A DNA stretch of 64,000 nucleotides, taken from assembly GCA_018651745.1 (NCBI GenBank), contig JABIDL010000011.1, forward strand, positions 32,616-96,615, written 5' to 3'. A model generated the notes under the pieces. That model worked only from the letters and a program-made list of their open reading frames with translations. It was not told the origin of the DNA and made no database searches. Shown piece by piece: positions 22,920-42,176 of the stretch. The stretch is from Candidatus Neomarinimicrobiota bacterium. GTDB taxonomy: Bacteria > Fidelibacterota > Marinisomatia > Marinisomatales > TCS55. A program made the translations under genes and the position numbers. The number at the start of each line of letters is the position of its first letter. Position 1 is the stretch's first letter.

Positions 22920-23372
22920 TCATCCATTCATTAATTTACGTTTTTTAATTACATTTTTCGCTAAAACATCGAGTGGCTCAGATGACATTAATTCTCGAAG
23001 TTTACTACGAATTGGTTTCCACTGATCATGGAGAGGGCACGGAGCATCATCTGTGCAAAGATCCAAACCAACAATACACTGTTCTTTTTCAGGAGGAAGT
23101 CCATCAATTGCATAAACGATATCATTCAAGAAAATCTTTTTGGGATCTTTTGCCAGTAATACACCTCCAGTTCTACCACGAACTGCTTTTATTAATCTCT
23201 GCTTCACCAATGTTTGCATGATTTTCGCTAAAAAATGGTATGGGATATTATACTCTGCAGCAATTTTTCGAATCATAACCGGTTTCTCGGGTTTTGTTTC
23301 CGCAAGATAAATCATTGCTTGAATCGCGTACTCTGCTGATTTAGAATAAAGCATAGTGTTGTATTTTACCAT
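22920..23372 (-). CDS. Rrf2-family transcriptional regulator with three-Cys cluster motif
   Basis: A 150-residue Rrf2 protein. Residues 7-90 form the winged helix (LYSKSAEYAIQAMIYLAE, YNIPYHFLAKIMQTLVK, RGRTGGVLLAK). A loop with CIVGLDLCTDDAPC supplies three cysteines, spaced as in the [2Fe-2S] or [4Fe-4S] binding members IscR and NsrR. NsrR senses nitric oxide and IscR senses iron-sulfur status. It sits between two oxidase gene sets, 24 bases after the last gene of the first and 127 bases before the second. An AAGGA site 11 bases upstream supports the ATG at 23372; MLYSKS at residue 7 is an alternative start. A redox or NO sensor controlling oxidase choice is a plausible inference. Confidence 0.88.
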   Translation of the reverse strand: MVKYNTMLYSKSAEYAIQAMIYLAETKPEKPVMIRKIAAEYNIPYHFLAKIMQTLVKQRLIKAVRGRTGGVLLAKDPKKIFLNDIVYAIDGLPPEKEQCIVGLDLCTDDAPCPLHDQWKPIRSKLRELMSSEPLDVLAKNVIKKRKLMNG

Positions 23373-23396
23373 AATTATTTCAATCCTTCAATAAAC

Positions 23397-23576
23397 TTAT
23401 TTTTGCCTTTTCACATACATAATGAAAAACCCTGATATAATAAACGGGCTAATAATAATACCTAACAAGGGAATATATGCTGAAATTGAACTTCCTATCG
23501 TATCACCAGCTGCGCAATAAGGGCAGGACAATACCTTCTCAAAAAATAATAGAAATCCGAATGATTTTACATTCAT
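23397..23576 (-). CDS. 59-residue membrane miniprotein with a CPYC motif
   Basis: A short gene, 59 codons plus stop, starting three bases after the subunit IV gene. The protein has an amphipathic N-terminus, KVLSCPYCAAGD with a CPYC motif, then two hydrophobic stretches (PLLGIIISPFIISGFFIMYV) and a basic end (KRQK). Position, spacing and CxxC make it a counterpart of the 77-residue CATC protein in the other oxidase cluster, though the sequences are not obviously alike. Possible thiol, copper or heme handling during oxidase assembly; function unproven. Confidence 0.65.
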   Translation of the reverse strand: MNVKSFGFLLFFEKVLSCPYCAAGDTIGSSISAYIPLLGIIISPFIISGFFIMYVKRQK

Positions 23577-23579
23577 GAT

Positions 23580-23864
23580 TTACATTGTCCAGGAATAAGC
23601 CAAATCATACATCACTCCCCAAAGGAAATACAACGCAAGTGGAATTGGAAGCGCTATGAGACGACGCAATGTTTTGGTTTCATATCTCAAATGCATATAT
23701 ACTAATGCAACCAGCATAATTTTTGTAACAGTGATTGAGAGTAATAACGCAATAAGCCCCATTCTCGGCAATCCTAACCCAATTACCCAAACTTCAATCA
23801 CTGTCAAAATAGCCAGTCCGATGGCATTCCATAAATAGGTTTTTTTATGATCTTCCATTGTCAC
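23580..23864 (-). CDS. Cytochrome c oxidase subunit IV-like protein (first oxidase cluster)
   Basis: A 94-residue protein with three hydrophobic helices; KIMLVALVYMHLRYETK in the middle matches the COX4/CyoD-like KxxLVxxxxMHL pattern. It follows the second subunit III gene by 4 bases. It is the structural subunit IV of the first oxidase. Confidence 0.8.
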   Translation of the reverse strand: MTMEDHKKTYLWNAIGLAILTVIEVWVIGLGLPRMGLIALLLSITVTKIMLVALVYMHLRYETKTLRRLIALPIPLALYFLWGVMYDLAYSWTM

Positions 23865-23868
23865 TCCT

Positions 23869-24501
23869 TTAAATGAGGTAAATTATTGTGAATACAAGAA
23901 TCCAAACGAGATCTATAAAATGCCAAAACAATCCGGCAATCTCAACACGGTCATAATTATCAGCAGAAAACTTTTGTTTTAATGCCATTGATAGAATAAC
24001 AGATAAATAAATTACTCCAGATAAAACATGAAGACCATGAAACATGGTTGTTACATAAAATACAGATCCATAAATGCCTGTAGTTGGCAAAAATTGATCT
24101 CCAGGAATCCCGACTGCCGCTAAGAGATTTCCTAAATGTTCACCACCCATAATAAAATGGGAATATTCCCAAACTTGAATACCAAGAAACATGACACCAC
24201 CTGCAATAGTAAAAGCTAAATATTTGATTAACCCATTTTGGTCATCTTTAAGAATAGAGTTCAATGCCATTACCATGGTAAAACTGCTGCAAATTAAAAG
24301 GAAAGTATTAAAAGCGGTCAGTGGTACGTTTAAAACAGACCCAGCGATAGGCCAAGTTTCTGTTGATATTCTTAAGCCGAGTCCGCCGATTATAATCGCT
24401 CCAAAGGTTAATCCATCCATTACGATAAATAACCACATCCCCAATTTTCCGGTGGTGGCTTTTCCAAAAAAAGATTTATTCATTGGTATTGCTTGATCCA
24501 T
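23869..24501 (-). CDS. Cytochrome c oxidase subunit III homologue, second copy in tandem (CoxP-like)
   Basis: A 210-residue subunit III homologue using the ATG at 24501, which has AAAGGA just upstream; a longer frame to 24582 would overlap the previous gene and its added residues look unlike an oxidase. Features are KLGMWLFIVMDGLTFGAIIIGGLGLR, VTTMFHGLHVLSGVIYL and the end GLFWHFIDLVWILVFTIIYLI. It is the second of two adjacent subunit III genes, the arrangement known from coxMNOP-type oxidases. Confidence 0.88.
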   Translation of the reverse strand: MDQAIPMNKSFFGKATTGKLGMWLFIVMDGLTFGAIIIGGLGLRISTETWPIAGSVLNVPLTAFNTFLLICSSFTMVMALNSILKDDQNGLIKYLAFTIAGGVMFLGIQVWEYSHFIMGGEHLGNLLAAVGIPGDQFLPTTGIYGSVFYVTTMFHGLHVLSGVIYLSVILSMALKQKFSADNYDRVEIAGLFWHFIDLVWILVFTIIYLI

Positions 24502-24511
24502 TGTATTCCTT

Positions 24512-25096
24512 TCATAATATGATGATAAAAAACACGAAGATAATACACCACAAAACAGTGAGGAAATGCCAAAACCATCCAATCATTTGATATCGAACGG
24601 ATTTCACTTGGCGGTTATTTTTAAGTTGATACCCTAACCAGCATAAAATTGATAAACCTACAATTAGATGAACCGCGTGGACAGCGCCAATCAAATAAAC
24701 CATTCCTGCAAGAACATTACCATTGCTTGTAAATCCTATGCCAACTAACATTAGCCATAATTTAATTTGGCCGAATAAGAATACAATTCCAAAGAAGGCG
24801 CTGGCGTACAAATAGTTGAAATTTGTCGTCCCATTTCTCACATTCCATCGGTTATAAGATGAATGAAACATTAAACTACTCAAAATCAAAAGAAGGGTGG
24901 TTACGCCGGCCACTATAATTGTGTCCCCATTTAGGTTAATGGTTGCCAATTCCTTAGCCACCATTGCAGAAAATGTTGCTAGAAAAGTAACAAAGAGCAT
25001 TATAATTCCACCCAAAGAAACAAGAACCCCCATTTTAGATGTGTCCATATCACATTCTATTCGAAGCGAATCAGCAGACTGTACTTGTGGACTCAT
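24512..25096 (-). CDS. Cytochrome c oxidase subunit III homologue, first copy in tandem (CoxO-like)
   Basis: A 194-residue protein with about five helices. It is more diverged than the following copy but keeps the subunit III pattern AVHAVHLIVGLSIL and the C-terminal IGWFWHFLTVLWCIIFVFF. It starts inside the subunit I stop (ATGA overlap). Two different subunit III proteins may pack on opposite sides of subunit I or replace one another; sequence alone does not decide. Confidence 0.85.
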   Translation of the reverse strand: MSPQVQSADSLRIECDMDTSKMGVLVSLGGIIMLFVTFLATFSAMVAKELATINLNGDTIIVAGVTTLLLILSSLMFHSSYNRWNVRNGTTNFNYLYASAFFGIVFLFGQIKLWLMLVGIGFTSNGNVLAGMVYLIGAVHAVHLIVGLSILCWLGYQLKNNRQVKSVRYQMIGWFWHFLTVLWCIIFVFFIIIL

Positions 25097-26805
25097 GATT
25101 CATTTCCAATTTTGACAGTTTGACAAACCCAATCTGCGTCTTTCACATTGGGATTACTGTACTCATGCGGACCGTTAACCACCTGAGGGGCTGTGCTAAA
25201 ATTTCCATGAGCAATGGGATAGTCCATTGTCCATTCTAATGTATTCGATTTCCATGGATTATTTTCTGCCACTTTTCCTTTTACCATTGAATGAATAAAA
25301 TTATATAAAAACAAGATTTGGAAAGCACCAAGTATAAATGCCGAAATTGTTATAAAAATATTGATATCTGCCAATGGCTTTAGGAATTCAAATTCACCCG
25401 GATTATATAATCTACGGTGCTGACCCGCATACCCAGTAGCCATCATGTTAAAGAAGACTAGATTAATCGATATAAATGTTCCCCAGAAATGAATTTTACT
25501 TAGAAGAGGGTTCAGCATTCGACCAAACATCCTTGGATACCAGTAAGCAATTGCAGCATATCCACCAAATAATACAGATGCAGCCATGGTGTAATGGAAG
25601 TGACCCACAACAAACATGGTATCGTGAAGATAAATATCAGCTGTAACTGTCGCATTATAAAGTCCTGTAAGCCCACCTATAGCAAATACCCAAATCACGG
25701 CCATAGTATGCAACATCGGGGGGTCAAAATGAAGGGACCCACGCCAAAGTGTTGCTAACCAGTTGAAAAAGAAAATAGAGGATGGAATGCTAATTAGAAG
25801 CGTTAGAAACATAAAAGTTTTCCCCAACAAAGGACTCATCCCCGTGGTGTACATATGATGCCCCCAAACGACTGAACTTAGGACCACGATCGTACTCATA
25901 CATATAACTGTAATTTTAGCACCAAATGCCGGTTTCCTTGAAAAAACCGAGAGTAATTCAGATACAATCCCCCATACGGGCAAAATCAAGATATACACTT
26001 CTGGATGTCCAAAAATCCAGAATACATGCTGGAATAATAAAGGATCACCGCCGCCGCCTGCGGCTAAACGCCCTGCCAAAAAGAATTGAGTTCCCAGTAA
26101 TTGGTCAGTCAATAACATAATCAATCCAGCAGCAATGACCGGGACAAAAATGACATTTAAAATGGATGCAAGCCACAATCCCCACACAGACAGGGGCATG
26201 CGAAAATAGGTCATTCCCGGTGCTCGGAGCCTGATGACTGTAATGACATAATTAATGGCACCCATCATTGTGGCCACACCCATGAGTGTAATGGACAACG
26301 TCCAGAAAGCCTGACCCAAACCAGGTATCCCCCCTGCCGGTAAACTCAGGGGTGGATAGGAAGTCCAACCACCCGAAGCTACACCCAACGGTAAAAAATA
26401 TGAAACCAATAACACCACTCCCGAAAGAAAGAATGTCCAAAATGAGAGCATATTCAATGTTGGGAAAGCCATATCCTTGGCACCAATCTGAAGCGGAATC
26501 ACAAAATTCCCGAAAGCACCGATTAATAATGGCGTTATTGCCCAGAATATCATAATGGTACCATGCATAGTAAATAATTGATTATAAACATCAGGAGTGA
26601 TCATTCCCGCTTCTCCATTCACTATAGATCCAAATAGCCACCATGGAACCGGCTGCTCCGGGTATGCCAACTGCCACCGGATAAGCATGGCCTGGAATCC
26701 ACCGAAAAGTAGAAAAAATATTCCGAGAAATAAAAATTGTTTACCAATCGTTTTATGATCGGTCGAAAAAATATGGGTACTCATAATCGATTTTGAACTG
26801 CTCAT
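25093..26805 (-). CDS. Cytochrome c oxidase subunit I (first oxidase cluster, CoxN-like)
   Basis: A 570-residue subunit I starting at ATG 26805, with AAGGA seven bases upstream and an ATGA overlap with subunit II. It keeps the D-channel Asp (GAKDMAFPTLN), Glu and Tyr (HPEVY), the CuB His pair (WGHHMYTTGMS) and heme ligands (HDTMFVVGHFHYT). The K-channel Lys position is Phe in the aligned segment IPSSIFFFNW. Gene order II-I-III-III-IV resembles coxMNOP clusters. It differs throughout from the subunit I at 21071, so the two sets are not a recent duplication. It lies downstream of, and on the same strand as, the NXR-like genes. Confidence 0.95.
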   Translation of the reverse strand: MSSSKSIMSTHIFSTDHKTIGKQFLFLGIFFLLFGGFQAMLIRWQLAYPEQPVPWWLFGSIVNGEAGMITPDVYNQLFTMHGTIMIFWAITPLLIGAFGNFVIPLQIGAKDMAFPTLNMLSFWTFFLSGVVLLVSYFLPLGVASGGWTSYPPLSLPAGGIPGLGQAFWTLSITLMGVATMMGAINYVITVIRLRAPGMTYFRMPLSVWGLWLASILNVIFVPVIAAGLIMLLTDQLLGTQFFLAGRLAAGGGGDPLLFQHVFWIFGHPEVYILILPVWGIVSELLSVFSRKPAFGAKITVICMSTIVVLSSVVWGHHMYTTGMSPLLGKTFMFLTLLISIPSSIFFFNWLATLWRGSLHFDPPMLHTMAVIWVFAIGGLTGLYNATVTADIYLHDTMFVVGHFHYTMAASVLFGGYAAIAYWYPRMFGRMLNPLLSKIHFWGTFISINLVFFNMMATGYAGQHRRLYNPGEFEFLKPLADINIFITISAFILGAFQILFLYNFIHSMVKGKVAENNPWKSNTLEWTMDYPIAHGNFSTAPQVVNGPHEYSNPNVKDADWVCQTVKIGNES

Positions 26806-27608
26806 TTTAATTCCTTCCATTGCCATCCCCATTTTGTTGGAACACCTTCATCCTCTTCCTCAAATCCCCAATCGTCGTCGTCGTCAGTCACTTCCGGTTC
26901 CTGAGCGACAATCCAATTATCAAATTCATCTTTTGACTCTACAGTAAGAAAACCCTTCATTTTAAAATGGCTATTCCCACATAATTCAGCACAGGCAAAT
27001 TCATAATCTCCTGTCTCTTTTGCCTGAAACCACATGGCCGTAACCATCCCCGGTGTTGCATCTTGCTTATACCTGAAATTGGGTAGATAAAACGAATGAA
27101 TGACATCGTAGGTAGTCAGTTGGACCACAATGGGCGTATTCACAGGAATATGTAAAATGTTTTGTGGAGGCACAATATCATCGTTTGTACCAAAAATATC
27201 ATCATCCCCAGGATAACGAATATTCCAAGCATACTGTTGTGGCATAATTTCTATCCTGACAACATCTTCTCCTTTGGGAAATTTCCAGAATGCTTCTTTT
27301 AAATCTTTAAATGCCATGGATTCAATCACCACATCGATTGAGAAAAATACTAAAAGACCCATAGCGACTGTCAAATAACGGTGTTTTTTAGTATTACCTA
27401 AATCATAAACTGCATGAGGGTGTTTACGTGCATTATAACGCCAAATAAAAAATATGAGTGACACAACCACAATACCAAAATAAAGCGTAATAACAAAATC
27501 TGTGTATTGGATGACATTATCGATTCTATACCCATTCAAAGAAATATCTTTAGGTGGATCCACTAACCATATTCCCCCTGTCATTGTTTTTATTATTTTT
27601 TTCATCAT
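26802..27608 (-). CDS. Cytochrome c oxidase subunit II (first oxidase cluster, CoxM-like)
   Basis: A 268-residue subunit with two membrane helices and a periplasmic CuA domain. The ligands are present: VIHSFYLPNF His, then CAELCGNSHFKM with two Cys, Glu, His and Met. There is no fused cytochrome c domain. Near the C-terminus is a strongly acidic patch, EVTDDDDDWGFEEEDEG, followed by a short Trp- and Lys-containing end, resembling the acidic Trp tails of other proteins in this cluster. AGGAG lies upstream of the ATG. It opens the oxidase part of the operon, 35 bases after the small membrane protein gene. Confidence 0.94.
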   Translation of the reverse strand: MMKKIIKTMTGGIWLVDPPKDISLNGYRIDNVIQYTDFVITLYFGIVVVSLIFFIWRYNARKHPHAVYDLGNTKKHRYLTVAMGLLVFFSIDVVIESMAFKDLKEAFWKFPKGEDVVRIEIMPQQYAWNIRYPGDDDIFGTNDDIVPPQNILHIPVNTPIVVQLTTYDVIHSFYLPNFRYKQDATPGMVTAMWFQAKETGDYEFACAELCGNSHFKMKGFLTVESKDEFDNWIVAQEPEVTDDDDDWGFEEEDEGVPTKWGWQWKELK

Positions 27609-27643
27609 TCTGTACTCCTTACAAACTTTAAATCAAATTAATT

Positions 27644-28096
27644 TTAAAATGATTCCCCCAATTGTTCTCTAATATTGCTTCCCTTCGATCGTACTCTATC
27701 CCATAATTGTAAAAAGATGAAACCGAGCGAAACCATTTGTAGAACTGATGCCCAAAAAGCCATAACTAACAGCGTACCGTCAACTTGATATCCGGCAAGG
27801 ACCTCTGTGAAAAATCGCCCGATGGTCGCCGTGGCCAATACCCAATACAAAGCCCAGATGAACTTTGGGTTGTAATACTTATATCCTTTTTTTGAACGTG
27901 GAAAAAACCACGTAGCTACACCAATAATCATATTCATCACACCTCCGATTAGAATAATATGTGTATGAGCCATAATGAGTGTTGATGGTGCCAACCAACC
28001 AAATACAAAGTGGCCATATTGCCAAAACCCCGTTGCCAACCCCAGCCCAAAGCAAAGGAAGGATGTTTTAATGAAGTATCTCGAAGTTTTAGTCAT
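27644..28096 (-). CDS. Small heme-copper-oxidase-like membrane protein
   Basis: A 150-residue protein with about four helices. MAHTHIILIGGVMNMIIGVATWFFPR resembles the histidine-bearing helix of cbb3/NOR-type subunit I proteins, and a YGHFVFGW segment precedes it. It is far too short for a catalytic subunit I and lacks the full set of six His. Stand-alone proteins of this type are often annotated as cbb3-like subunit I and are found near nitrogen-oxide genes. It sits between the hemerythrin-like gene and oxidase subunit II with gaps of 30 and 35 bases. It may bind a heme as an assembly factor or quinol/cytochrome partner; this is inference. Confidence 0.7.
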   Translation of the reverse strand: MTKTSRYFIKTSFLCFGLGLATGFWQYGHFVFGWLAPSTLIMAHTHIILIGGVMNMIIGVATWFFPRSKKGYKYYNPKFIWALYWVLATATIGRFFTEVLAGYQVDGTLLVMAFWASVLQMVSLGFIFLQLWDRVRSKGSNIREQLGESF

Positions 28097-28126
28097 TAAT
28101 ATTTTTTATCTAAAATATGCTGTTGG

Positions 28127-28672
28127 TTAATTATTTACTAATTCCTGCAATTCATTTGGACAAAAACAACAATAACCGATTTCATCACATTTAATTTTCA
28201 TTTTGTCCCATTGGGAATCTTCTGTGATTGCCTGTAATGCCATGGGATATAAAATGTGATTTTCTTTATGAATATGCTGTCGAAGTGTGTCGCACAATTC
28301 AATAATTAAATAAGAGAGTGAATTGACCTGTTCTTTCCAGTTATTTCCAAATTCAACTGTTTCCTTTTTTAATTGATGTTTCATATTTCGAATTAGCCCA
28401 TGTTCTTGCCTCATGACTTGTGGCGGACCAATTATTCCCAATAATTCAAGTGCCGGAAAAAGAACATCTTCTTCCCGTTGGTGATGGGGTTCAGCGGAAA
28501 TTAATTGAAGTGAAAATTGATTTATTTGGGGTAACAGTTTTTCATTATTTGAATGATCCTGTGATGATAATTGCTCTCTTAAAATTTGCAGTTCATCCAA
28601 AATAGTTAAAATATGTTCATGTTCTGTAAACATGGTTTTTATTACATGACCGTCGTTTAATTCTTTAAACAT
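28127..28672 (-). CDS. Hemerythrin-like domain protein with C-terminal Cys cluster
   Basis: A 181-residue helical protein starting at the ATG at 28672, chosen because AAAGGA lies six bases before it; an ATG six codons upstream lacks such a site. It has the histidine and acid pattern of a di-iron hemerythrin fold: TEHEHIL, EPHHQREEDVLFPAL, RQEHGLIRNMK and LRQHIHKENHILYPMAL. Relatives include DUF438-type and RIC/YtfE-like proteins involved in nitric oxide or oxygen sensing and iron-sulfur repair. The C-terminus carries KCDEIGYCCFCPNE, four clustered cysteines that could bind a second metal. Its place between NXR-like and oxidase genes fits a stress role (inference). Confidence 0.82.
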   Translation of the reverse strand: MFKELNDGHVIKTMFTEHEHILTILDELQILREQLSSQDHSNNEKLLPQINQFSLQLISAEPHHQREEDVLFPALELLGIIGPPQVMRQEHGLIRNMKHQLKKETVEFGNNWKEQVNSLSYLIIELCDTLRQHIHKENHILYPMALQAITEDSQWDKMKIKCDEIGYCCFCPNELQELVNN

Positions 28673-28761
28673 ATCTAATCCTTTAAGCATTGTTTAATTT
28701 GATGGTAATTTTTATTATTTTCATAATCTTGTCACATAAATATCATTGGGTAAAAAACTTT

Positions 28762-30024
28762 TTATCCATAAGCTAAACTCATACCAAGATTATCTTTATT
28801 ACATTGAGCAACATCAAGTAAAAATTTATCTATCAATTGCCAGTTTACGTGTTCCATGACAACAATCTTCCACCACTTGGGCTGGCCTTTATGCGTATCA
28901 GGTACCAAAGTATATTTTTCACAGATTCTCATTGGAATATCTTCCGAAGGAATTGTCACAATATTCATGAATTCATTCCTGAAAAACTGAACATCTAATT
29001 CAGATAAAGATTTACAAATAAAGTCCGATTTTATTATTAATTGTTCCATATGATCCATGAGACCTTTTGATCCATGCATATTTAAAATCATCCAAGTGGC
29101 AATTGCATTGGCTCCGGAACGGGAACCGCAAAGCGTATGGTCCAGTCCTTCTATATAACTGGCCTCTTCAGTCAAAACATTATCAATCAACCCTTTTCTT
29201 ATAAGGAATATCCCTGTACCATAAGGCGCCTGCAGCATTTTATGCCCATCAACTGATATTGAATCCACATTTGGGTTCTCAAAATTGAAGACATTATTGG
29301 GATTGGTAAATGGGTAAATAAAACCTCCGAATGCAGCATCAACATGTATTTTAAATTGAATGTTATGAGATTTATATAAATGAGTAATCGAATCAATATC
29401 GTCAATAGATCCAAACATGGTTGTGCCCATATTCAATACTGTGATAAAATATTTAACACCATCCGCTTTCAGTTCGCTCAATAAATTATCAAGTTTTTCA
29501 AAATCAATTTCTCTGCTATTGAAATCAACGTTCAGTAATTTGAAATTCAATTGTAAAATATTACAAACTTTAAAAAGAGAATAATGAGTATCCTCCGAGA
29601 ATAATACAATTATTTCATCATTTTTCGCATCTAAAACATTTTTATAATATTCACGGTAAATCCAAACAGCTTGCATATTGCATTCGGTGCCGCCAGAAGC
29701 AACATACCCGTCATAGTTGTTGGGTACTGCTTTAAATATCTCTTCTGCACATATCCGGAGTAAATCTAATTCAAGTTTTTGTGTACCCTGAAATGATGAA
29801 ATTGATTTTTCATAGGTATGGAGTCCAATATGATTTGGGTTTTCTATAAAGGATTTAATGAATGGTGCATTTTCAAGAAAATCCGCATCCGCAGGAAACA
29901 TTTTTGGATCAAGATATGTTGCTGGTAATCCCATTATATTATGGTCATAATAACTGGCATTATGCTCCAATGCATTAAATACAAAGGTTTTTAATTCATC
30001 AAAAGAATATACGGGCCAAAACAT
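28762..30024 (-). CDS. PLP-dependent group II amino acid decarboxylase-like protein
   Basis: A 420-residue fold-type I PLP enzyme. The PLP lysine is Lys262 in SVDGHKMLQAPYGTG, the PLP-contacting Asp is Asp229 in HVDAAFGGF, and GGTECNMQAVW (about residues 111-121) is the group II decarboxylase phosphate-binding motif. The family contains histidine, tyrosine, DOPA/5-hydroxytryptophan, glutamate and aspartate decarboxylases; the substrate cannot be fixed from motifs. It follows the chaperone gene of the NXR-like operon by 21 bases. An aromatic amino acid hydroxylase heads the same operon, making an aromatic hydroxy-amino acid a candidate substrate (inference). Confidence 0.88.
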   Translation of the reverse strand: MFWPVYSFDELKTFVFNALEHNASYYDHNIMGLPATYLDPKMFPADADFLENAPFIKSFIENPNHIGLHTYEKSISSFQGTQKLELDLLRICAEEIFKAVPNNYDGYVASGGTECNMQAVWIYREYYKNVLDAKNDEIIVLFSEDTHYSLFKVCNILQLNFKLLNVDFNSREIDFEKLDNLLSELKADGVKYFITVLNMGTTMFGSIDDIDSITHLYKSHNIQFKIHVDAAFGGFIYPFTNPNNVFNFENPNVDSISVDGHKMLQAPYGTGIFLIRKGLIDNVLTEEASYIEGLDHTLCGSRSGANAIATWMILNMHGSKGLMDHMEQLIIKSDFICKSLSELDVQFFRNEFMNIVTIPSEDIPMRICEKYTLVPDTHKGQPKWWKIVVMEHVNWQLIDKFLLDVAQCNKDNLGMSLAYG

Positions 30025-30045
30025 CTTTTAATCTTTCACATATTT

Positions 30046-30720
30046 TTAATTAATCGTGGCTTTTGATATTTTTTCACAATCAATAAAAGTGTGTAAAAAC
30101 TTTCCACTCAAATTGTAAAAGTCACCATTAATTTTATCAGCCAGATTTCCAGCAAACATTTTGGCCCAATCTGAAAAATGATTTTGATTGAAATCAATAA
30201 ATGCTGTTTCGCAAATCTCTTTTTCTTCATCTAATTCATTTGTTAGAGCTAACAACTCTTTTAGCAATAGGAAAGAAAGAAACTCGGTTTGAGTAGAAAT
30301 ATGATCGGCTCTTTCGATGGACTCCACTTCCATCCCGAATGCTTTATAAAATCCATTCAAGTCAGCCAGTTTCTGGGTGCGAAAAAACACATCGGAATTT
30401 TTTAAATGCTCCAATGCATAAGGAGCAATCTGCTTGGACAGGGTATGGCCAAATACATTCACAAATTCATTCCTGATATTTTCTTTTTTCTTTTCATCCA
30501 ATTTTGACATCAACATTTGGAAAGATTTTGACAAGGTGGTTTCTTCACTATGCTCCAACTCTTCTATTTGGAAACAGGCATCCAGAACACAGCCTTGGAT
30601 TTTGGGTGTGAACAACATGGCAAATTTTTCACTTTCGGGATCTGAAAACAGTGCAGACACAGTACCATAAAGAGTTGAACGTATTTCTAACAGATGGCTT
30701 TGTTTTGTTAATGTATCCAT
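30046..30720 (-). CDS. TorD/NarJ-family molybdoenzyme maturation chaperone
   Basis: A 224-residue helical protein using the ATG at 30720, one base after the NxrB-like stop; a longer frame to 30804 runs inside that gene and is unlikely. Diagnostic elements are FGHTLSKQIAPYALEH, the ERADHISTQTEFLSFLLLKE helix and FNQNHFSDWAKMFAGNL. These chaperones bind the twin-arginine leader and apo-form of DMSO-reductase-family catalytic subunits until the molybdenum cofactor is inserted, then release them for Tat export. Its place after the beta-subunit gene is the usual one. Confidence 0.88.
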   Translation of the reverse strand: MDTLTKQSHLLEIRSTLYGTVSALFSDPESEKFAMLFTPKIQGCVLDACFQIEELEHSEETTLSKSFQMLMSKLDEKKKENIRNEFVNVFGHTLSKQIAPYALEHLKNSDVFFRTQKLADLNGFYKAFGMEVESIERADHISTQTEFLSFLLLKELLALTNELDEEKEICETAFIDFNQNHFSDWAKMFAGNLADKINGDFYNLSGKFLHTFIDCEKISKATIN

Positions 30721-30721
30721 A

Positions 30722-32002
30722 TCAAATTGAATTAAAATGAATGCCCGGCCGTTCATACATGGGTTCTTCCACTGTGGTGCGAACGCATTCTTTACCCTGT
30801 TCATTGTAACCGATCACCGTATCGTTGTATATATTTAATATCTTTTGTGAACCGTCTGAAAGTGTGACTTCTTTTTCATAAATCTTGGGACCTTTTTTAA
30901 TTTGGTATTTATAGATCACTTCTCGTTGGGCACGGAAAAGTTGCAAAATCGCCATGAGTTCACGGGATGGCGCCGTGTAACGATCGATAGCTTGTTCCAC
31001 TCCCGGGCCAAACATTTGGGTCAAATAAGCTCTGGGCGCCCATCTTGGCGGGATGTAAAAAATATTCGGTTCAGTCCCAAATTGTGGATAGAGCGGCAGG
31101 GCGACTTTTTCCTTTTGGATCATCCAGTATAATGGATTTTCTTCATCTTTTGTCCACAATCCATCTTGATTCATTTTCACTAAACCCTGCATTCGGATTT
31201 TCCCCACACAAGATGCCATACATCGTGTTTCTACCGAAACACCATCGGGTGTAATATGGTCATCCTGACCTTCCAATCTGGGATAACAAGCAATGCATTT
31301 TTCCGAAATTTTTGTCTGACCATTATACATGGCTTTCTTGTACGGACATGCTTCCACACATTTTCGATAACCGCGACACCGTTCCTGATCGATAAGAACC
31401 ACACCGTCTTCATCTCGTTTATAAATGGCTTTTCTTGGACAAGCCGCCAAACAGGCTGGATAAGTGCAATGGTTGCAAATTCGCTGTAAATAGAAAAAGA
31501 AACTCTTATGTTCCGGCAGTTTGATAGGATCGGTAATATATCCCATTTTATCTTTCTTCGTCGATTTGGGCGGCGAAACATCTTCACCAATATTGGGTTT
31601 GGTCCATTCATGATCTTCAGGTAAATAGCCCAAAACACGGGATTGCCCATTTTGCGTTTTTTCTTTTTCAGCTGCTTCAAAAATGGTCATACCATCATAT
31701 TCACCTTCATCGTTCCAAGTCATAGTTTTGTCTTGACGGTCATGAGCCTTTTGCATCAGGTTGAGCAATTTCACATCCCAATATTGGGGATAACCGCCAT
31801 AGGGCTTTGTTTCAACATTATTCCACCACATCAATTCCTGTCCCTTGGAAAATGTCCAGGTGCTTTTGCAAGCCATGGTGCAGGTTTGGCAGGCAATACA
31901 GCGATTAATATTAAAAACGGCGGCAAATTGTCTTTCTGGATATTTCCCTTCATAAGGATAACTCATATCACGGTTTATTTGCCAATTATAGACTTTATTC
32001 AT
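30722..32002 (-). CDS. nxrB: Iron-sulfur beta subunit of NXR-like molybdenum oxidoreductase
   Basis: A 426-residue NarH/NxrB-family electron-transfer subunit. Its cysteine groups are C35-C38-C41-C45, C176-C179-C184-C188, C209-(Tyr212)-C215-C219 and C236-C239 with C261-C265, giving three [4Fe-4S] and one [3Fe-4S] cluster; Tyr212 in place of Cys is the CRGY variant seen in NxrB. Stretches such as WWNNVETKPYGGYPQ and FFFYLQRICNHCTYP closely match what I remember of NxrB from Nitrospira and Nitrospina. It has no signal of its own and should be exported with the alpha subunit. AGGAG lies before the ATG. The symbol reflects resemblance, not proof of nitrite oxidation. Confidence 0.9.
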   Translation of the reverse strand: MNKVYNWQINRDMSYPYEGKYPERQFAAVFNINRCIACQTCTMACKSTWTFSKGQELMWWNNVETKPYGGYPQYWDVKLLNLMQKAHDRQDKTMTWNDEGEYDGMTIFEAAEKEKTQNGQSRVLGYLPEDHEWTKPNIGEDVSPPKSTKKDKMGYITDPIKLPEHKSFFFYLQRICNHCTYPACLAACPRKAIYKRDEDGVVLIDQERCRGYRKCVEACPYKKAMYNGQTKISEKCIACYPRLEGQDDHITPDGVSVETRCMASCVGKIRMQGLVKMNQDGLWTKDEENPLYWMIQKEKVALPLYPQFGTEPNIFYIPPRWAPRAYLTQMFGPGVEQAIDRYTAPSRELMAILQLFRAQREVIYKYQIKKGPKIYEKEVTLSDGSQKILNIYNDTVIGYNEQGKECVRTTVEEPMYERPGIHFNSI

Positions 32003-32266
32003 TTAGTTCTCCTGCCCATTTATCACATGAATATTTTCATAAATCTGACCAACAATTTTTTCAATGGATTCCTTTCCAAGTTGACTATAAGCCATAAACA
32101 AACCACCATAAAAAGGATTGGAAAACATAGTCAATAATTCATCTTTTGTTGTTCCCATATCTCGAAATTCTTCCGACATCACCTTCGCTTGATGAATTAT
32201 ATTTCCACCGGGGATTTCCATCGCTTTCATTTCGAAAGGATCTTCTTTATCGTAGTCTTTTACCAT
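32003..32266 (-). CDS. 87-residue protein between the alpha and beta subunit genes, unknown
   Basis: A small acidic soluble protein with no cysteines and no membrane helix. It starts inside the end of the alpha-subunit gene (ATG shared with its Trp and stop codons) and ends directly against the beta-subunit start, so it is translated in step with both. The segment TMFSNPFYGGLFMAYSQLGKESIEKIVGQIY looks like two helices. I do not recognise it; a small assembly factor or additional subunit is a fair guess. Confidence 0.7.
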   Translation of the reverse strand: MVKDYDKEDPFEMKAMEIPGGNIIHQAKVMSEEFRDMGTTKDELLTMFSNPFYGGLFMAYSQLGKESIEKIVGQIYENIHVINGQEN

Positions 32267-35200
32267 TCATCATCTCCGATGGTTGTGATATTTCCGGCAA
32301 TATAATTTTCCATGAATTCATTTTCATTCGCTGGCGTGAAACCAGATTTAACTATGTCCAATTTCCCTTTTCCTTTCAAGCCACCTTTTTCAGCAAATGT
32401 GATTTTTACCAATGTTTCTTTTGGCGCGGTATTGATGGCGTGATTATCCGCTTCGTAACCGAATAAAAATCCCATTTTTGCTTTTGCTTTGTGGAAGAGA
32501 CTATCCAATTGCTGCATGGGCATCTGCCAGCCATAGGTTAAGGATTGGTGAGAACCATAGCGATAACTGGCCTGATATCCCGTATCTATGGATTGAGCAC
32601 GCCCATCCGCCCGGGTTTCATGAGCCAAAACAGATTTTTCAGTGGCCATCCATGCGCCGTGTTTTATCATGATCACATGGTAAGGATAAGATGGATTATA
32701 ACGGCAACGGACTTTTAACCGTGCCACTTTATAAAATGGATCCTTCACATCAAAATTGCGATAAGGGCGATTTTGGGGATCCGAATCCACATAAACATAA
32801 TCGCCATCTTCGATACCCAAATCCTTCGCCGCATCGGAATTCATATACATTGTATGCTCACCCACGCCGGGCTGCCGCTTATCCTTTCGATATGGATCGC
32901 CAAAGGGATTGCTCCAGATAAAGTGCCAATCCGTCACTGCCCAACTTGAATGGGTTGTATGGCGAGATTTTGGCGTTAAGCAATAAAATGAAAAACCGTC
33001 TTCCCATAAAAAGTTTTTGGTCTTTTTTACTTTCTGCCAAGGCAGTTTCAGATTCCGCGCCTGTCGTTCTCCCGCCGAAGTTGCATCAGCTGGAATACCA
33101 TAATCTTCTGGACGAATTAGGGGATTGTTGGAAACAATTACATTGGGCAGATAAGGCGTTGCTTCAGGACCTTCCCGATGGACGATGAAATTTTCACCAT
33201 ATTCGATAATTTCCGGTTCATCGTTGTAGGCTTGCAGTCTTCCAGTGGGGGTATAAAAAGGTGTACTTTCCTTGATCTGCTCATAAAAAGGAATCCGGGG
33301 ATAAGTCCGAAATAACATGAGCGCAGAACCGGGCTCGCCGTATTTCCCATCCATGATATCATTGGTTGTGTAACCTTTTGTCGTGTTGCTGCCGTCCAAC
33401 AGACGATCAATATAGATTTCCGTCTTTCCTTCCAGCACGAATTTCCAGTATTCTTCGAATCGTTTATCTTTCAGGATTTTACCCAACTTTTCGGCAACAC
33501 TTGCCCAAATGAGCACATCATCTTTGGAATCGAAAACTGGTTTCAAACCGCCATTCCAGATTTGCAAAAATGGATTGGAACAGGATGCAGTTAATTCATA
33601 ACTCTGTTGTTCTGCCCAACTGTTGGCCGGCAGCACAATATCCGCATACTCGCAGGTGGCAGTCATTTCAATATCCTGACTGATGATCATTTCAATCCCG
33701 GGATTGGTATTTTTTATCATTTCATAATGATACTTGGCGTTGTTCAGCAGGTTTACATTGTTATGCCAAATCGCTTTGGTGGGGGTGGGCATGTGGGTTT
33801 CGCCGGTGAATGATTTTTTACCAAATTTGGGCGTATCCACCAATAAAGGGAAATCCCCTACATTCCAATACGATGGCTCTTCTCCCCGGGCATACCCCTT
33901 GATATTTAATTCCTTTGCGGTGGCTTTTGGATCCAAGTTGGGTGCAAATGGATCTTCCGCTACCCAGCCTTTAAATCCGGGTCCAACTTCTTTTGACCCT
34001 TGGAAAATCCCTGCTTTATAATTTCCGGCCCAGGTATGGCACCCGGCACCCCGCTTGCCAATATTTCCGGTGAGAATCACCGGCAAATAACAGGCGCGAT
34101 TATTTTCCACAGCATGGAACCAGTGATTTAATCCTTCACCAATATGGATCGCCGCCGGCTTGATTGTGGCCAGATCTTTGGCCAATTGTTGAATCAATTC
34201 CCTATTTGAATGGGTGATTTCAACCACCGAATCGAGATCATAATCTTTTAAATGAATATGCTTATACGCCCAGAAAACGGTGCATATTTCAATTTCATTT
34301 CCGTCCTTATCTTTGATGGTTCCATCCCAATCAAGCGCCGGATCAATTTTTTTCTTTTTCAGGAATTCGCCAATATCTTCCCGGGTGAGCGGCTGGACAG
34401 ATTTGGTCGTCCTGTCAAAAATGGTAAAATCACCAATTTTTTCATACTGCTCTTTTTTCATGCCGTGGATTTTGAAACTGGGACCATTTTCGGATAGTTG
34501 GTTTTTATAGTCTGGAATAAAATCTTCCGGCTTCAGGCGTTTCAGCGTATCTTTTCTAATTAATAAGGGGAAGTCCGAAAATTCTTTCAGGAATTTCTTA
34601 TCGTGCCAGTTTTTATCAATAATAATCTTGGAAATACCGAGCAATAAAGCAGTATCTGTATTGGGTCGAACGGTGAGCCAATAATCAGCCTTGGAAGACG
34701 AAGCGCCGTATTCCGGTGAAATATTCACCAATTTTCCGCCCCGTTCCATGATCTCTGCCGCAAAGTGGTTATCAGCCCGTTTATTCTCCACCAAGTTTTT
34801 CCCAATCGAAACCAACAGTTTGCTGTAACGCATTTCATTCATATCCACATCGGAAGCCTGTAATCCATGAACAAATGGAAAACCGGGTGCCTGATCACCA
34901 TGCCAAGTATAGTTAGACCAATTGCGGCCGGCTTTTGCATCTTTTTTGCTAACGCCGCGAACATGATGATCCACCAACGCCAACGTATTGCTGAAGCGGT
35001 AAGCGCCATATTTCCCTATCACACCTAATAAACCCATACCACCCCGCAACTTTATAGTGCGCGTCCCGGCGCCTTCCCAATGGGTGAGCATTTCTTCAGG
35101 ATAGCCTTGTTCCAGCAATCGCTTTTTCCCAATATCGCCGCTGTAAGTTGTGGATATATTGATGAGTCCATTGGCAATGTAGTTTTCAATTTTATCCCAG

Positions 35201-35778
35201 GATATTTTCACCAAAGTATCCGTCCCGCGGGAATTGAATTTGTATTTGTCTCGGTTCGACTGCGTAAGGTATGGAAAGCCATCATCCGCCCATCGCTTCC
35301 AGCCTTTTCTCACCATGGGATATTTTAATCGGTAACTGCCGTAAATGCGCCGGTGAAAAGTGAATCCGTTGGAACAACCCCGTGGATTCCATGCATGGGT
35401 GCATTGGTTGCCGTAAAGGTCTTTAATTTTATGGGAATCGTAATTTTGTTCAGTCCGAATCATAACGCCATTGCGTTTGAAGCCCCGCATTCGGCATTCG
35501 TGGGTACAATTGGGAGAACAGATAAAAGTGAAAGAATCGTCAAATTTGTATTGGTTGCGGTAGATCTTTTCCCAATCCCTGTTTGGATAATGGGTCAGAG
35601 GATTCTCAATCCCGGGAATACCTTTCAGAAAAAACATACTTCCGGGCATGGACCATAAAAGTCCGGCGCTACCTAACCCAGCTGTACCGGCCTTTAAAAA
35701 ATCCCGACGGCTAATCCCGTTTTGTGGTTTTTGATTTTCAGGATTGACTTTACCATTATTAATAGAGTCTTTATTCAT
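32260..35778 (-). CDS. nxrA: Catalytic alpha subunit of NXR-like periplasmic molybdenum oxidoreductase
   Basis: A 1172-residue type II DMSO-reductase-family enzyme. The twin-arginine leader SRRDFLKAG (residues 23-31) indicates periplasmic location, unlike membrane-bound cytoplasm-facing NarG. The [4Fe-4S] site has Cys87, Cys91, Cys95 and Cys135, and the probable Mo-ligand Asp is Asp295 in TWHGDQAPGF. The C-terminal third (GVGEHTMYMNSDAAKDLGI, YRYGSHQSLTYGWQMPM, GFTPANENEFM) closely recalls NxrA of Nitrospira, Nitrospina and anammox bacteria, which interconvert nitrite and nitrate. Direction here is undetermined; the wider family also includes chlorate, selenate and hydrocarbon enzymes. It ends in GDDEW. 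AAGGA lies before the ATG. Confidence 0.9.
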   Translation of the reverse strand: MNKDSINNGKVNPENQKPQNGISRRDFLKAGTAGLGSAGLLWSMPGSMFFLKGIPGIENPLTHYPNRDWEKIYRNQYKFDDSFTFICSPNCTHECRMRGFKRNGVMIRTEQNYDSHKIKDLYGNQCTHAWNPRGCSNGFTFHRRIYGSYRLKYPMVRKGWKRWADDGFPYLTQSNRDKYKFNSRGTDTLVKISWDKIENYIANGLINISTTYSGDIGKKRLLEQGYPEEMLTHWEGAGTRTIKLRGGMGLLGVIGKYGAYRFSNTLALVDHHVRGVSKKDAKAGRNWSNYTWHGDQAPGFPFVHGLQASDVDMNEMRYSKLLVSIGKNLVENKRADNHFAAEIMERGGKLVNISPEYGASSSKADYWLTVRPNTDTALLLGISKIIIDKNWHDKKFLKEFSDFPLLIRKDTLKRLKPEDFIPDYKNQLSENGPSFKIHGMKKEQYEKIGDFTIFDRTTKSVQPLTREDIGEFLKKKKIDPALDWDGTIKDKDGNEIEICTVFWAYKHIHLKDYDLDSVVEITHSNRELIQQLAKDLATIKPAAIHIGEGLNHWFHAVENNRACYLPVILTGNIGKRGAGCHTWAGNYKAGIFQGSKEVGPGFKGWVAEDPFAPNLDPKATAKELNIKGYARGEEPSYWNVGDFPLLVDTPKFGKKSFTGETHMPTPTKAIWHNNVNLLNNAKYHYEMIKNTNPGIEMIISQDIEMTATCEYADIVLPANSWAEQQSYELTASCSNPFLQIWNGGLKPVFDSKDDVLIWASVAEKLGKILKDKRFEEYWKFVLEGKTEIYIDRLLDGSNTTKGYTTNDIMDGKYGEPGSALMLFRTYPRIPFYEQIKESTPFYTPTGRLQAYNDEPEIIEYGENFIVHREGPEATPYLPNVIVSNNPLIRPEDYGIPADATSAGERQARNLKLPWQKVKKTKNFLWEDGFSFYCLTPKSRHTTHSSWAVTDWHFIWSNPFGDPYRKDKRQPGVGEHTMYMNSDAAKDLGIEDGDYVYVDSDPQNRPYRNFDVKDPFYKVARLKVRCRYNPSYPYHVIMIKHGAWMATEKSVLAHETRADGRAQSIDTGYQASYRYGSHQSLTYGWQMPMQQLDSLFHKAKAKMGFLFGYEADNHAINTAPKETLVKITFAEKGGLKGKGKLDIVKSGFTPANENEFMENYIAGNITTIGDDEW

Positions 35779-35780
35779 TA

Positions 35781-37343
35781 CTAATCCTTCAGTTCTAATT
35801 CATACCAAGTTGAAACCATTTTTTGTCCATTCCGATCTTTTTCACTGCCATTCCAAATCGCAAATGCAATGGGAGAGGATTTGTCTTTCTTAAAATTCAC
35901 TTTTTGTTCTGAATCGGATTGGAGTTTGCGGACAAATACAACCTGCCATTTTTGTCCGTCCCATGTGCCATTACCCATTACCTTTTGTTCATTTTCAGAA
36001 AAGGGTGTTACCGTTTGGGGACCTACTGCTGTTACATTTTCGACAGGCGATGTTTTCCCTAATTCAGAATTGATATTTCCTGCATCTCTTCCGGAGAGAT
36101 AAGCCATATCATTCATGAGTGTGGGGTAAGTGTTCACATTTGAATCACTGATCCGATTGGCGTAAGCCAATACAATATCGGATTCCGTTTTTTCATTGGT
36201 CCGCATTTGCCATTCTGCTTTCCAAAACCAAATGTCTGTAGGATGATCTTCAGACCCCATTCCATGAAATCCTTTGGTTCCATCAAGTGAGAATTGAATA
36301 GCCGCCCCATCCTGAAAATCCTGTACCCGATATAATTCTTGATCTTGGGACTGATCTTCCCATTCCATTTTGATGGCAATATATTTTGAATTATAAAGAG
36401 CCTGCACATTCACCATTTGGTAATTCACATTGTCACTTTGCCATAGGCGGGAGATCGGAATGGAATAGGTTTTAGCACGATTCCATAAAGAAAAAGAAGC
36501 GTCCATAAATTGATCGGGTTTGACAAATCGACTTGTCTTTACGGCCGCCAGCTTTCTATCTTTTGCTTGATTCTGTAATATATTATCTGGTTTTGTTTCC
36601 AGACTTTTTACATAATGAACCAAAGCCCAAGCCAGTTTATTCTCTTCGGATTTTGGCTTTCCTAACACTTCAGCCAGATTTCCGTAGGATGGCATTGGCG
36701 TTCCATCCATTCCTCCTACAAATCGTAAATATAAATCCCGATTTGTTCCCCCGCCCAGGTATACACCGCTGGTAAAATCTTTTGGAATAATTGGATATCC
36801 TTGGGAATCCACCAGTTTTTGGGATGACAATCCATCACCTTTACCGGTATTCCCATGGCACATATTGCAACCAACTTCTGTATAAATTGATCTCCCTAAT
36901 TCAATGAGTTCATTCGTTACGGGTAATTCATCCGGTACAGATATTTTTTGAACACCTTTATTATTCATTGAACTGAATTTTTTCACAATATCAACCAGAG
37001 ATTTTATTTCATGTTTTTGTAAAAAATTGAAGGGCGGCATGGCCGTTCCCGGCATTCCATCGTGAATTGTAGTAAACAGATCCTGATCGGTGGGAGGGTT
37101 GCCGGCAGAAGTGGATTTTATTTTGAATACGCCATTGGTCAAGTCTCGTGGTTTTGGATAAAGTAGGTATGAATAATCTCCGTTCCCATTTCCATCTATT
37201 CCATGACATCCGGAGCAATATTCCTTATATAAAATTTCACTTTCTTTATTTTGAGCCAACAGAAAAGAGAGCGTGAATAAGATTGGAAGCGATCGTAAAA
37301 TAATTCTCTGAGTATTAATTTTATTTTTATTAAACAATTTCAA
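35781..37343 (-). CDS. nxrC: NxrC-like subunit: dicytochrome c fused to ethylbenzene-dehydrogenase-type heme domain
   Basis: A 520-residue exported protein: a signal peptide ending near residue 31, two c-type heme motifs (CSGCH at 43-47 and CNMCH at 158-162), then from about 265 a domain like the heme-b-binding gamma subunit of ethylbenzene dehydrogenase, with the typical ending IAFAIWNGSEKDRNGQK. It should carry electrons between the beta subunit and soluble or membrane cytochromes, replacing a NarI-type membrane anchor, which I do not find. Fusion of the two cytochrome domains to the heme-b domain makes it a one-piece electron wire. The start is TTG, 4 bases after the hydroxylase stop. Confidence 0.88.
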   Translation of the reverse strand: MKLFNKNKINTQRIILRSLPILFTLSFLLAQNKESEILYKEYCSGCHGIDGNGNGDYSYLLYPKPRDLTNGVFKIKSTSAGNPPTDQDLFTTIHDGMPGTAMPPFNFLQKHEIKSLVDIVKKFSSMNNKGVQKISVPDELPVTNELIELGRSIYTEVGCNMCHGNTGKGDGLSSQKLVDSQGYPIIPKDFTSGVYLGGGTNRDLYLRFVGGMDGTPMPSYGNLAEVLGKPKSEENKLAWALVHYVKSLETKPDNILQNQAKDRKLAAVKTSRFVKPDQFMDASFSLWNRAKTYSIPISRLWQSDNVNYQMVNVQALYNSKYIAIKMEWEDQSQDQELYRVQDFQDGAAIQFSLDGTKGFHGMGSEDHPTDIWFWKAEWQMRTNEKTESDIVLAYANRISDSNVNTYPTLMNDMAYLSGRDAGNINSELGKTSPVENVTAVGPQTVTPFSENEQKVMGNGTWDGQKWQVVFVRKLQSDSEQKVNFKKDKSSPIAFAIWNGSEKDRNGQKMVSTWYELELKD

Positions 37344-37347
37344 CCTA

Positions 37348-38058
37348 TCAAGTATTTACTTTCTGAACCAGTTCTTCAACACATCCATAAAGCTGTTCTT
37401 TATTATCTAATATGAATAGCTTGTTCTGCATTTCATCGATTCGAAATTCTTGATTAATCATAAGTTCAATATCAAAGTCAATTACTTCAGGTCCACCACT
37501 GAGTGCAAAGTCACATTCACCAATAGACGATGCAATTCCGGCGCCAAATGCACGGGGGCCGTCATCTGTTTTGATGAGGCCAAATTCAATGGTAAACCAG
37601 AAAAACCGTTCAAACTGATGGAATTTTTTTTCATTATCAATAAACATGCAGGCAACTTCACCAATTTTTTGACAAAAGTCAGCGTATTCTCTATCAATCA
37701 AAAAAGGAATATGTCCATACAGATCATGAATCATATCCGGTTCGGGTGTATAACTCAAATCTCCTTTATCTCTAATAAAATTCCCAATAGGGAATAATCG
37801 TTTTGCCAAAAGAGAATAAAAACTTTCTCCATTTTCCAGACCAGAAACATACACTCCATTAAATCCACTACTTTTCTCTAATTGTCTATTGATATCAAAT
37901 AGTTGTGGAATTTTTTCTGCTGAAATATTCAAAGTTGCCAGCCCGCTATGGAACACATCTACAACTTGTTGACTTCGGGTTTTTTCATGCATAGATAAAA
38001 CAGTATTCCATGTATCCATTTCATCCTTAGTAAATATTCTGCCCCTTGACAAGGGCAT
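37348..38058 (-). CDS. Aromatic amino acid hydroxylase (phenylalanine 4-monooxygenase family)
   Basis: A 236-residue catalytic-domain protein, near the length of bacterial PhhA. The iron triad is complete: His111 and His116 in YTPEPDMIHDLYGHIPFL and Glu158 in FWFTIEFGLI. The N-terminal helix pattern (FTKDEMDTWNTVLSMHEK, then FPIGNFIR) also aligns with the family. These tetrahydropterin-dependent enzymes hydroxylate Phe, Tyr or Trp; the YTPEPD wording is closer to animal enzymes than to typical bacterial PAH, so the substrate is open. It ends 4 bases before the NxrC-like start, making it the first gene of that operon. Its recycling partner phhB lies at 5202. Confidence 0.92.
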   Translation of the reverse strand: MPLSRGRIFTKDEMDTWNTVLSMHEKTRSQQVVDVFHSGLATLNISAEKIPQLFDINRQLEKSSGFNGVYVSGLENGESFYSLLAKRLFPIGNFIRDKGDLSYTPEPDMIHDLYGHIPFLIDREYADFCQKIGEVACMFIDNEKKFHQFERFFWFTIEFGLIKTDDGPRAFGAGIASSIGECDFALSGGPEVIDFDIELMINQEFRIDEMQNKLFILDNKEQLYGCVEELVQKVNT

Positions 38059-38149
38059 TATATAAACAATAACATCAATTTGATAACTCTCGGAGAAGCG
38101 CTAGAACAACAAAAATTTGCATTCATAAATACCTTTTTCACTCATTTCC

Positions 38150-38177
38150 TTTATATTATTAATGACAAAAATGTCAA
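38150..38177 (-). promoter_or_regulatory. Sigma-70-type promoter of the hydroxylase/NXR-like operon
   Basis: On the - strand a perfect TTGACA (38177-38172) is followed after 16 bases by TATAAA (38155-38150). Transcription would begin about 85 bases upstream of the hydroxylase ATG. No other promoter-sized gap occurs before the TorD-like gene, so this promoter probably drives hydroxylase, nxrC-, nxrA-, 87-residue, nxrB- and chaperone genes. Confidence 0.6.
38163..38176. promoter_or_regulatory. Perfect inverted repeat over the -35 box (candidate operator)
   Basis: TGACA-AAAA-TGTCA is a perfect 14-base inverted repeat. Extended by one base it reads as half-sites with a 6-base spacer, the geometry of CRP/FNR-superfamily sites, though the half-site is not the canonical TTGAT or TGTGA. 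It covers the -35 box of the hydroxylase/NXR-like operon, so a bound protein could repress or activate. Confidence 0.45.
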
Positions 38178-38285
38178 ATATTTTTTGTGGAATATATTAT
38201 CTCAATATAATATTATTGTGTTATTAAATACAAGCATCAAAGGTTGCATTATCTTTTTGATGATTATTAGTTTTAACAACACCCT

Positions 38286-38314
38286 TTGATTAGGTTAATT
38301 TGAGCAATTAAATT
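38286..38314 (+). promoter_or_regulatory. Candidate promoter of the cupredoxin gene
   Basis: TTGATT (38286-38291), a 17-base spacer and TAAATT (38309-38314) lie 43 bases upstream of the ATG. AAAGGAG at 38339-38345 is a strong ribosome site, 11 bases before the ATG. The 298-base gap 38059-38356 is otherwise very AT-rich and holds no other clear gene. Confidence 0.4.
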
Positions 38315-38356
38315 CGCAGGTTTAATTTAGAACAATCCAAAGGAGTTGTATCAGAT

Positions 38357-42171: not shown

Positions 42172-42176
42172 AAAGG

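Follow-up and report, generated by a model that had tools for sequence, protein, structure and literature searches.

The genome of a Candidatus Neomarinimicrobiota bacterium (GenBank assembly GCA_018651745.1, here G000; 1.86 Mb, 95.8% complete) carries an operon whose products, as sequence comparison confirms, make up an enzyme of the periplasm-type nitrite oxidoreductase (NXR) family and not a NarGHI nitrate reductase. The operon lies in a stretch of 64,000 nucleotides, referred to below as the window (contig JABIDL010000011.1, here C11, positions 32616-96615), in which the genes for the gamma, alpha and beta subunits and a chaperone follow one another in that order on the minus strand between window positions 30046 and 37343, all four being open throughout. 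It likely belongs to a block that moved recently between two Marinimicrobia genera by homologous recombination in two flanking genes, and the best reading of its function, to which we give a probability of roughly 60%, is the oxidation of nitrite to nitrate with electrons leaving via the c haems of gamma towards O2. The presence of nxrA in this phylum is already known; new here are the clade marked by the ligand of the first cluster (FS0), the exchange between genera and the row of genes.

Identity of the enzyme

Among solved structures, alpha finds its best match in NxrA of Kuenenia stuttgartiensis (7b04_B; 1713 bits over residues 23-1165, 1143 residues), the next solved enzyme being 4ydd_A (190 bits), listed as dimethyl sulfoxide (DMSO) reductase family type II and presumably a perchlorate reductase, while the NarG chains of Escherichia coli reach 117-123 bits. 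Beta matches Kuenenia NxrB with 583 bits over residues 2-426. Against the NCBIfam models narG and narH, alpha and beta score 150 bits (cut-off 1084) and 197 bits (cut-off 524), respectively, in a collection that holds no NXR model for comparison. The twin-arginine translocation (Tat) signal model TIGR01409 is passed by alpha with 19.6 bits (cut-off 16.7). In addition, D295 and N90 of alpha align with the molybdenum ligand Asp275 and the substrate residue Asn70 of the Kuenenia enzyme, numbered as in PMC8387239 (papers are cited here by PMC number), and both are invariant in 13 aligned alphas. In a 62-row tree without ClrA, built from the best 80 of 555 related loci, alpha falls within the NXR clade together with the anammox rows, and NarG and haloarchaeal rows fall outside; the backbone among NXR groups is mostly without resolution in this tree, and the validated nitrite oxidisers in the trees are the anammox rows only. 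The original prediction, made from the letters of the window, had assigned alpha and beta to the NXR family and a Tat leader to alpha, and both assignments hold. The refuting conditions that it had set did not arise, as alpha falls within the NXR clade and keeps the molybdenum-ligand Asp and the substrate Asn.

Two more distant relatives of alpha deserve mention. On a plasmid of the haloarchaeon Natronococcus occultus (L137:3501-7045) a match of 34.7% identity, split into two pieces, covers 99% of the query, and most of that stretch has no listed protein gene, in a gene table that omits pseudogenes. The NC10 genome CSP1-5 carries a second, 40% identical alpha (L021:15859-19341) beside its NXR, with a CoxB-CoxA pair upstream.

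The FS0 ligand and the gamma subunit

Alignment with 7b04 places Cys91 of the window alpha where the Kuenenia enzyme has the FS0 ligand Asp71, and an all-cysteine FS0 is predicted for the window enzyme. FS0 of NXR and of nitrate reductase (NAR) has been described as bound by three Cys and one Asp, or three Cys and one His, depending on the lineage (PMC8387239); the arrangement of the solved anammox enzyme (three Cys and one Asp), which does not define NXR, is not found in the window alpha. Among 160 different alphas, taken from the matches listed, this position is Asp in 79, Cys in 75 and unreadable in 6, and among the best 80 of 555 loci it is Cys in 27 and Asp in 53. A clade of 20 rows in the 62-row tree (support 99/96) has Cys exclusively and is made up of a nine-row Marinimicrobia group that includes the window, five Planctomycetota rows, one Bacteroidetes row, and Nitrospinota ARS89, ODZ_NOB7a, Tectomicrobia, Rokubacteria and Myxococcaceae. 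The alphas of the NXR-like loci from ARS89, ODZ_NOB7a, Tectomicrobia, Rokubacteria, Planctomycetota, Myxococcaceae and Bacteroidetes RIFCSP are 61-71% identical to that of the window. The eight anammox rows (support 100/100) all have Asp. Outside the 20-row clade, Cys occurs in four other rows and in two haloarchaeal rows, and the tree calls for at least three changes. A literature search on the aspartate or cysteine of FS0 in nitrite oxidoreductase turned up no paper on an all-cysteine form, which is not proof that there is none. The change from Asp to Cys offers a residue for probing how NXR tunes its first cluster. The Cys form is also seen in ODZ_NOB7a (L019), a metagenome-assembled genome (MAG) that appears as a nitrite oxidiser in the list of PMC11373643.

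The gamma subunit joins two CXXCH motifs (residues 43 and 159) to an EB_dh domain (91.8 bits), a fusion of two haem-c domains and one haem-b domain that the original prediction had recognised. Its best matches in the PDB are 6h5l chain B (157.7 bits) and Kuenenia NXR-C (82.9 bits), and its predicted structure, with a mean predicted local distance difference test score of 81, likewise matches 7b04_C and 6h5l_B. The cytochrome half is 38% identical in a fold search to 6h5l chain B, which in the HAO-like complex Kustc0457/Kustc0458 of Kuenenia is a separate protein of another complex, whereas in the window its counterpart forms one protein with the haem-b domain. At the positions of Met155 and Lys305, the haem-b ligands of Kuenenia NXR-C, gamma has M362 and K508, which are invariant in 42 aligned gammas (that of the window and 41 chosen from 120 listed). 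Full-length NxrA and NxrB, a haem-b gamma with Met and Lys ligands, the molybdenum Asp and the substrate Asn are thus shared with the Kuenenia enzyme (7b04; PMC8387239). By contrast, the six gammas found in anammox-type loci (L022, L032, L036, L039, L043 and L048) lack CXXCH, and that of the window has two extra c haems. The gene order of the window, gamma-alpha-beta-chaperone, is a further difference from Kuenenia. Among 120 gammas from the matches listed, 109 have two CXXCH motifs, 3 have one and 8 have none; two-motif gammas are common in rows other than those of anammox bacteria and Chloroflexota, and the fusion is therefore not special to Marinimicrobia. Within the FS0-Cys clade, the window apart, two motifs are present in gamma in each of the 15 tree rows for which an uncut gamma could be read, no gamma was found in reach at L017, L018 and L030, and that of L042 is cut. 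At L019 and L020 gamma lies downstream of the chaperone, unlike the order in the window.

Probable exchange between two genera

The comparison locus L004 contains DNA of G096, a genome of the same family as the window genome but of another genus. As G096 is a Neomarinimicrobiota genome, the Marinimicrobia origin proposed in the original prediction is borne out. Marinimicrobia, Neomarinimicrobiota, Marinisomatota and Fidelibacterota are names of one and the same phylum. Between window positions 37,620 and 27,881 only 84 of 9,740 positions differ from L004 (99.1% identity), whereas identity drops to 77% in the upstream outer flank, inside the aromatic hydroxylase gene (102 of 443 positions differ), and to 69% in the downstream outer flank, inside the gene for a 150-residue protein (74 of 238); the blastn match as a whole ends at 38,063 and 27,643. 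The block thus holds gamma, alpha, beta, chaperone, decarboxylase and hemerythrin genes, with its breakpoints inside both flanking genes. For comparison, the neighbouring cytochrome c1009 protein is 61% identical between the window genome and G096, and 69% between the window genome and its congener G081. In a further genome, G075, only 4 bases separate the hydroxylase gene from that of the 150-residue protein, and NXR is found elsewhere on the same contig. The differences within the block are clustered as mosaic patches in alpha, 44 of the 84 falling in 32,770-33,250 and 14 in 33,844-34,009; for the first patch, the distance to the seven rows compared is much the same for either version, so that no donor is assignable.

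These features make a recent exchange of the block likely, brought about by homologous recombination within the hydroxylase gene and the 150-residue protein gene. This is the simplest reading whichever genome L004 belongs to. A chimeric contig or mis-binning, with no transfer at all, is an improbable source of the 99.1% block: both genomes are in pieces (43 and about 100 contigs) and long identical stretches invite assembly joins, but the same two junctions are present in each assembly, where they connect the block to that assembly's own diverged copy of both flanking genes, and a single chimera would not account for both cases. Moreover, the outer flanks of the window are syntenic with G081, and mis-binning has no effect on a contig-to-contig comparison.

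The wider insertion site can be outlined from the congener G081 (L128), in which coxA1 and the gene matching window positions 38357-39061 lie about 0.2 kb apart, as against 15.6 kb in the window. The additional 15.6 kb comprises an Rrf2 regulator, a second CuA-type cytochrome c oxidase, the 150-residue protein gene, the NXR block and the hydroxylase. A search for flanking repeats and tRNA genes at this insert gave no convincing repeat and one tRNA-Leu, at 45565-45648, and one viral-contig scan for carriage by phages gave seven pattern matches, none of them a relative.

Proposed function

We infer the export, direction and redox partner of the enzyme as follows. Nitrite would be oxidised at the periplasmic molybdenum site of alpha, and the electrons would run through FS0 to FS4 to haem b and the two c haems of gamma, and from there by cytochrome c or the CuA oxidase to O2. 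Without O2, cells may reduce nitrate on the inside, and once O2 returns they may turn nitrite back into nitrate on the outside. O2 as the acceptor fits because the gene row runs into an oxidase: from 38058 to 23869, twelve genes follow one another in the same direction with gaps of at most 71 bases, except for 257 bases between alpha and beta, and the row terminates in genes of a cytochrome c oxidase whose CoxB carries CAELCGNSH, which we take to be a CuA-type motif. CoxA and CoxB of this second oxidase are about 44% and 32% identical, respectively, to the neighbouring CoxA and CoxB of the genome, which match PF00115 and PF00116.

A second nitrate reductase would be less needed because narHJI genes are already in the genome. 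On contig C16 (L088:7443-13591) a narH gene cut by the contig end (346 bits) is followed by narJ (55.9 bits, cut-off 59.35), narI (120.1 bits, cut-off 105.55), two narK genes (292 and 237 bits, both below the cut-off of 311.7) and a RIC/YtfE-type iron-sulfur repair gene; next to them stand genes resembling alternative complex III (ACIII), named by their order, with QrcB, QrcC and DsrP as best models. Whole NarGHI probably continues beyond the contig end. The molybdopterin model finds three places in the genome, namely the NXR alpha and two that do not resemble NarG, which fits a loss of narG at the end of C16 but is no proof of it. Those two molybdopterin oxidoreductases (L001:820-3120 and L003:223-3069) are by eye of the thiosulfate/polysulfide-reductase type, one of them beside an NrfD-like gene. 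The absence of NarI claimed in the original prediction therefore applies to the flanking genes scanned and not to the genome, and its proposal of a nitrite oxidiser's wiring was a sound lead that does not settle the matter, as c-type wiring would also serve a cytochrome c-fed nitrate reduction. As to the genome-wide search that it had recommended, the two NarK proteins were found, while the NirS, NrfA and NIR_SIR models had no match in the genome, the NirK model reached 19.1 bits only (cut-off 296.3), and the RuBisCO model had no match, in a search of which the reductive tricarboxylic acid cycle and the Wood-Ljungdahl pathway were not part.

Several points weigh against nitrite oxidation towards O2. 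NXR is reversible and its direction cannot be read from sequence, so that electrons could take the same route in reverse; thermodynamics allows c-type cytochromes to drive nitrate reduction, and the NXR/NAR-like enzymes of Nitrospinota outside Nitrospinia have been suggested likely to reduce nitrate (PMC10839748). The Asp that binds FS0 in the anammox enzyme is missing from the window alpha, narG itself was not found in the assembly, and the missing RuBisCO match counts on the same side. Furthermore, 15 of the 130 genomes in the order have a CoxA orthologue of the second oxidase (at least 70% identity); NXR was found in 5 of these 15, out of 12 NXR-bearing genomes in all, and not in the other 10. 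In G096, whose NXR is nearly identical, the CoxA match reaches only 45%, and in G086, G093 and G095 (three of the four NXR-free genomes fetched, G110 being the fourth) the oxidase has hemerythrin and/or ACIII/Qrc-like neighbours, partly judged by eye. For NXR together with this CoxA, Fisher's test gives p = 0.005, uncorrected for kinship or completeness. With no NXR found in 10 of the 15 oxidase-bearing genomes, an oxidase dedicated to NXR is rejected as a general rule, and the link between the two is a fact of the gene row in the window genome only.

The resemblance of gamma, with its c and b haems, to the wiring of the Ser, Clr and Ebd enzymes (PMC3578206) favours the strongest alternative, a periplasmic nitrate reductase in which electrons would pass from a bc complex through the c haems of gamma, with nitrite formed from nitrate on the outer side of the membrane; the original prediction had also allowed for nitrate reduction, which we keep as a rival, NXR being reversible. 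Genes of a bc-type complex lie directly upstream (39142-44669: a multihaem cytochrome, a Rieske protein and cytochrome b, the last named by eye), and PMC10359470 cites transcribed Marinisomatota nar genes in anoxic water. On the other hand, the genome already has the partial narH-narJ-narI row with two NarK, alpha and beta stay well below the narG and narH cut-offs, and the last genes of the row encode an O2-type oxidase; we consider this alternative rather unlikely. A type II DMSO-reductase-family enzyme for chlorate, perchlorate, selenate or hydrocarbon shares its domain make-up with Ebd, Clr and Ser and is hinted at by 328 bits to TIGR03479, but this score is far under the cut-off of 984.75, alpha matches NxrA over its full length, and ClrA is split from 57 NXR-type rows with full support and on a long branch in a 64-row tree, so that scores and tree lead us to reject an Ebd/Clr/Ser-type substrate, an idea that retains a very slight probability.

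Building on the preferred reading, nitrite oxidation, we tentatively propose, as a possibility well short of an even chance, that nitrite oxidation in Marinimicrobia is a travelling module: cells already respiring nitrate by a cytoplasmic NarGHI would gain or replace a periplasmic NXR with all-cysteine FS0 and three-haem gamma by homologous recombination in housekeeping genes on either side. With the NXR genes placed next to those of a CuA oxidase, a single cell would carry out the nitrate-nitrite loop in full, outside the known groups of nitrite oxidisers. If true, both directions of this loop would take place in one cell of a phylum described as abundant and heterotrophic, and host taxonomy alone would be insufficient for reading nxr genes.

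Distribution and comparison with known systems

An NxrA-like alpha (E-value 1e-100 or better) was found in 16 of 245 genomes of the phylum and in 10 of 94 when good-quality genomes are considered; 5 of the 16 matches are partial, and that of G198 (L079) is a more distant enzyme of the Asp form. It was found in neither of the two congeners, G081 and G082, the latter 85% complete. Previous work on oxygen-deficient zones reported 16 Marinisomatota MAGs that carry nxrA, of which 4 have narG as well (PMC10359470), and other work named nxrAB, narGHI and hao together for Marinimicrobia MAGs (PMC8163782); these belong to the same phylum as the window genome, and the accessible text of both papers does not describe FS0, gamma, the exchanged block or the oxidase neighbour. 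From the Arabian Sea, a novel lineage of nxrA that falls between those of anammox bacteria and Nitrospina has been reported (PMC4830246), to which we make no link here. The phylum has been called abundant and heterotrophic (PMC8748734), and nitrite oxidation has been measured in seawater without detectable oxygen, the responsible organisms still being worked out (PMC11373643). In the literature searched, covered mostly at the level of titles, no description of the FS0-Cys clade, the exchange or the oxidase gene row turned up. The window differs from NarGHI systems in its scores below the narG and narH equivalog cut-offs and in the lack of NarI among the flanking genes scanned.

Genomic context

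Table 1. Features in and around the NXR operon (window positions).
Feature	Position	Strand	Remarks
NXR gamma subunit, 520 aa	35781..37343	-	N-terminal hydrophobic leader; c-type haem motifs at residues 43 and 159; C-terminal haem-b (EB_dh) domain
NXR alpha (NxrA), 1172 aa	32260..35778	-	Tat leader SRRDFLK; Mo-ligand D295; substrate N90; FS0 position Cys91
NXR beta (NxrB), 426 aa	30722..32002	-	Cysteine motifs align with Kuenenia NxrB
TorD/NarJ-type chaperone (delta)	30046..30804	-	Start overlaps beta by 83 bases
Pyridoxal phosphate decarboxylase, histidine/tyrosine-decarboxylase-like	28762..30024	-	Within exchanged block
Hemerythrin HHE protein	28127..28690	-	Within exchanged block
150-aa membrane-type protein, without family match	27644..28096	-	Contains downstream breakpoint
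Aromatic amino acid hydroxylase	37348..38058	-	Contains upstream breakpoint
CoxB of second cytochrome c oxidase	26802-27608	-	Motif CAELCGNSH
CoxA of second cytochrome c oxidase	25093-26832	-	
Two CoxC-like genes of second oxidase	24512-25096 and 23869-24582	-	
Whole second cytochrome c oxidase	23869..27608	-	Subunit-IV-like open reading frame next, judged by eye
Rrf2-family regulator	22920..23372	-	
Exchanged block, 9,740 bases	27881..37620	.	84 differences from L004
15.6 kb segment absent from congener G081	22793..38356	.	

The aromatic amino acid hydroxylase is probably a neighbour and not part of the enzyme. A functional partnership with NXR was rejected for it, since its position in G096 and G075 is behind genes that by eye resemble HPPD. 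At three related loci (L134:7477-13975, L008:7824-13306 and L012:13905-15026) genes that by eye resemble those of molybdenum cofactor synthesis, and which we take to be MobA, MoaA, MoaC, MoeA and MoaE, come after the NXR operon. The multihaem cytochrome c1009 (1009 aa, window 39142-42171), beside the bc-type complex genes, is present in all seven related genomes searched, as a fragment at a contig end in G082.

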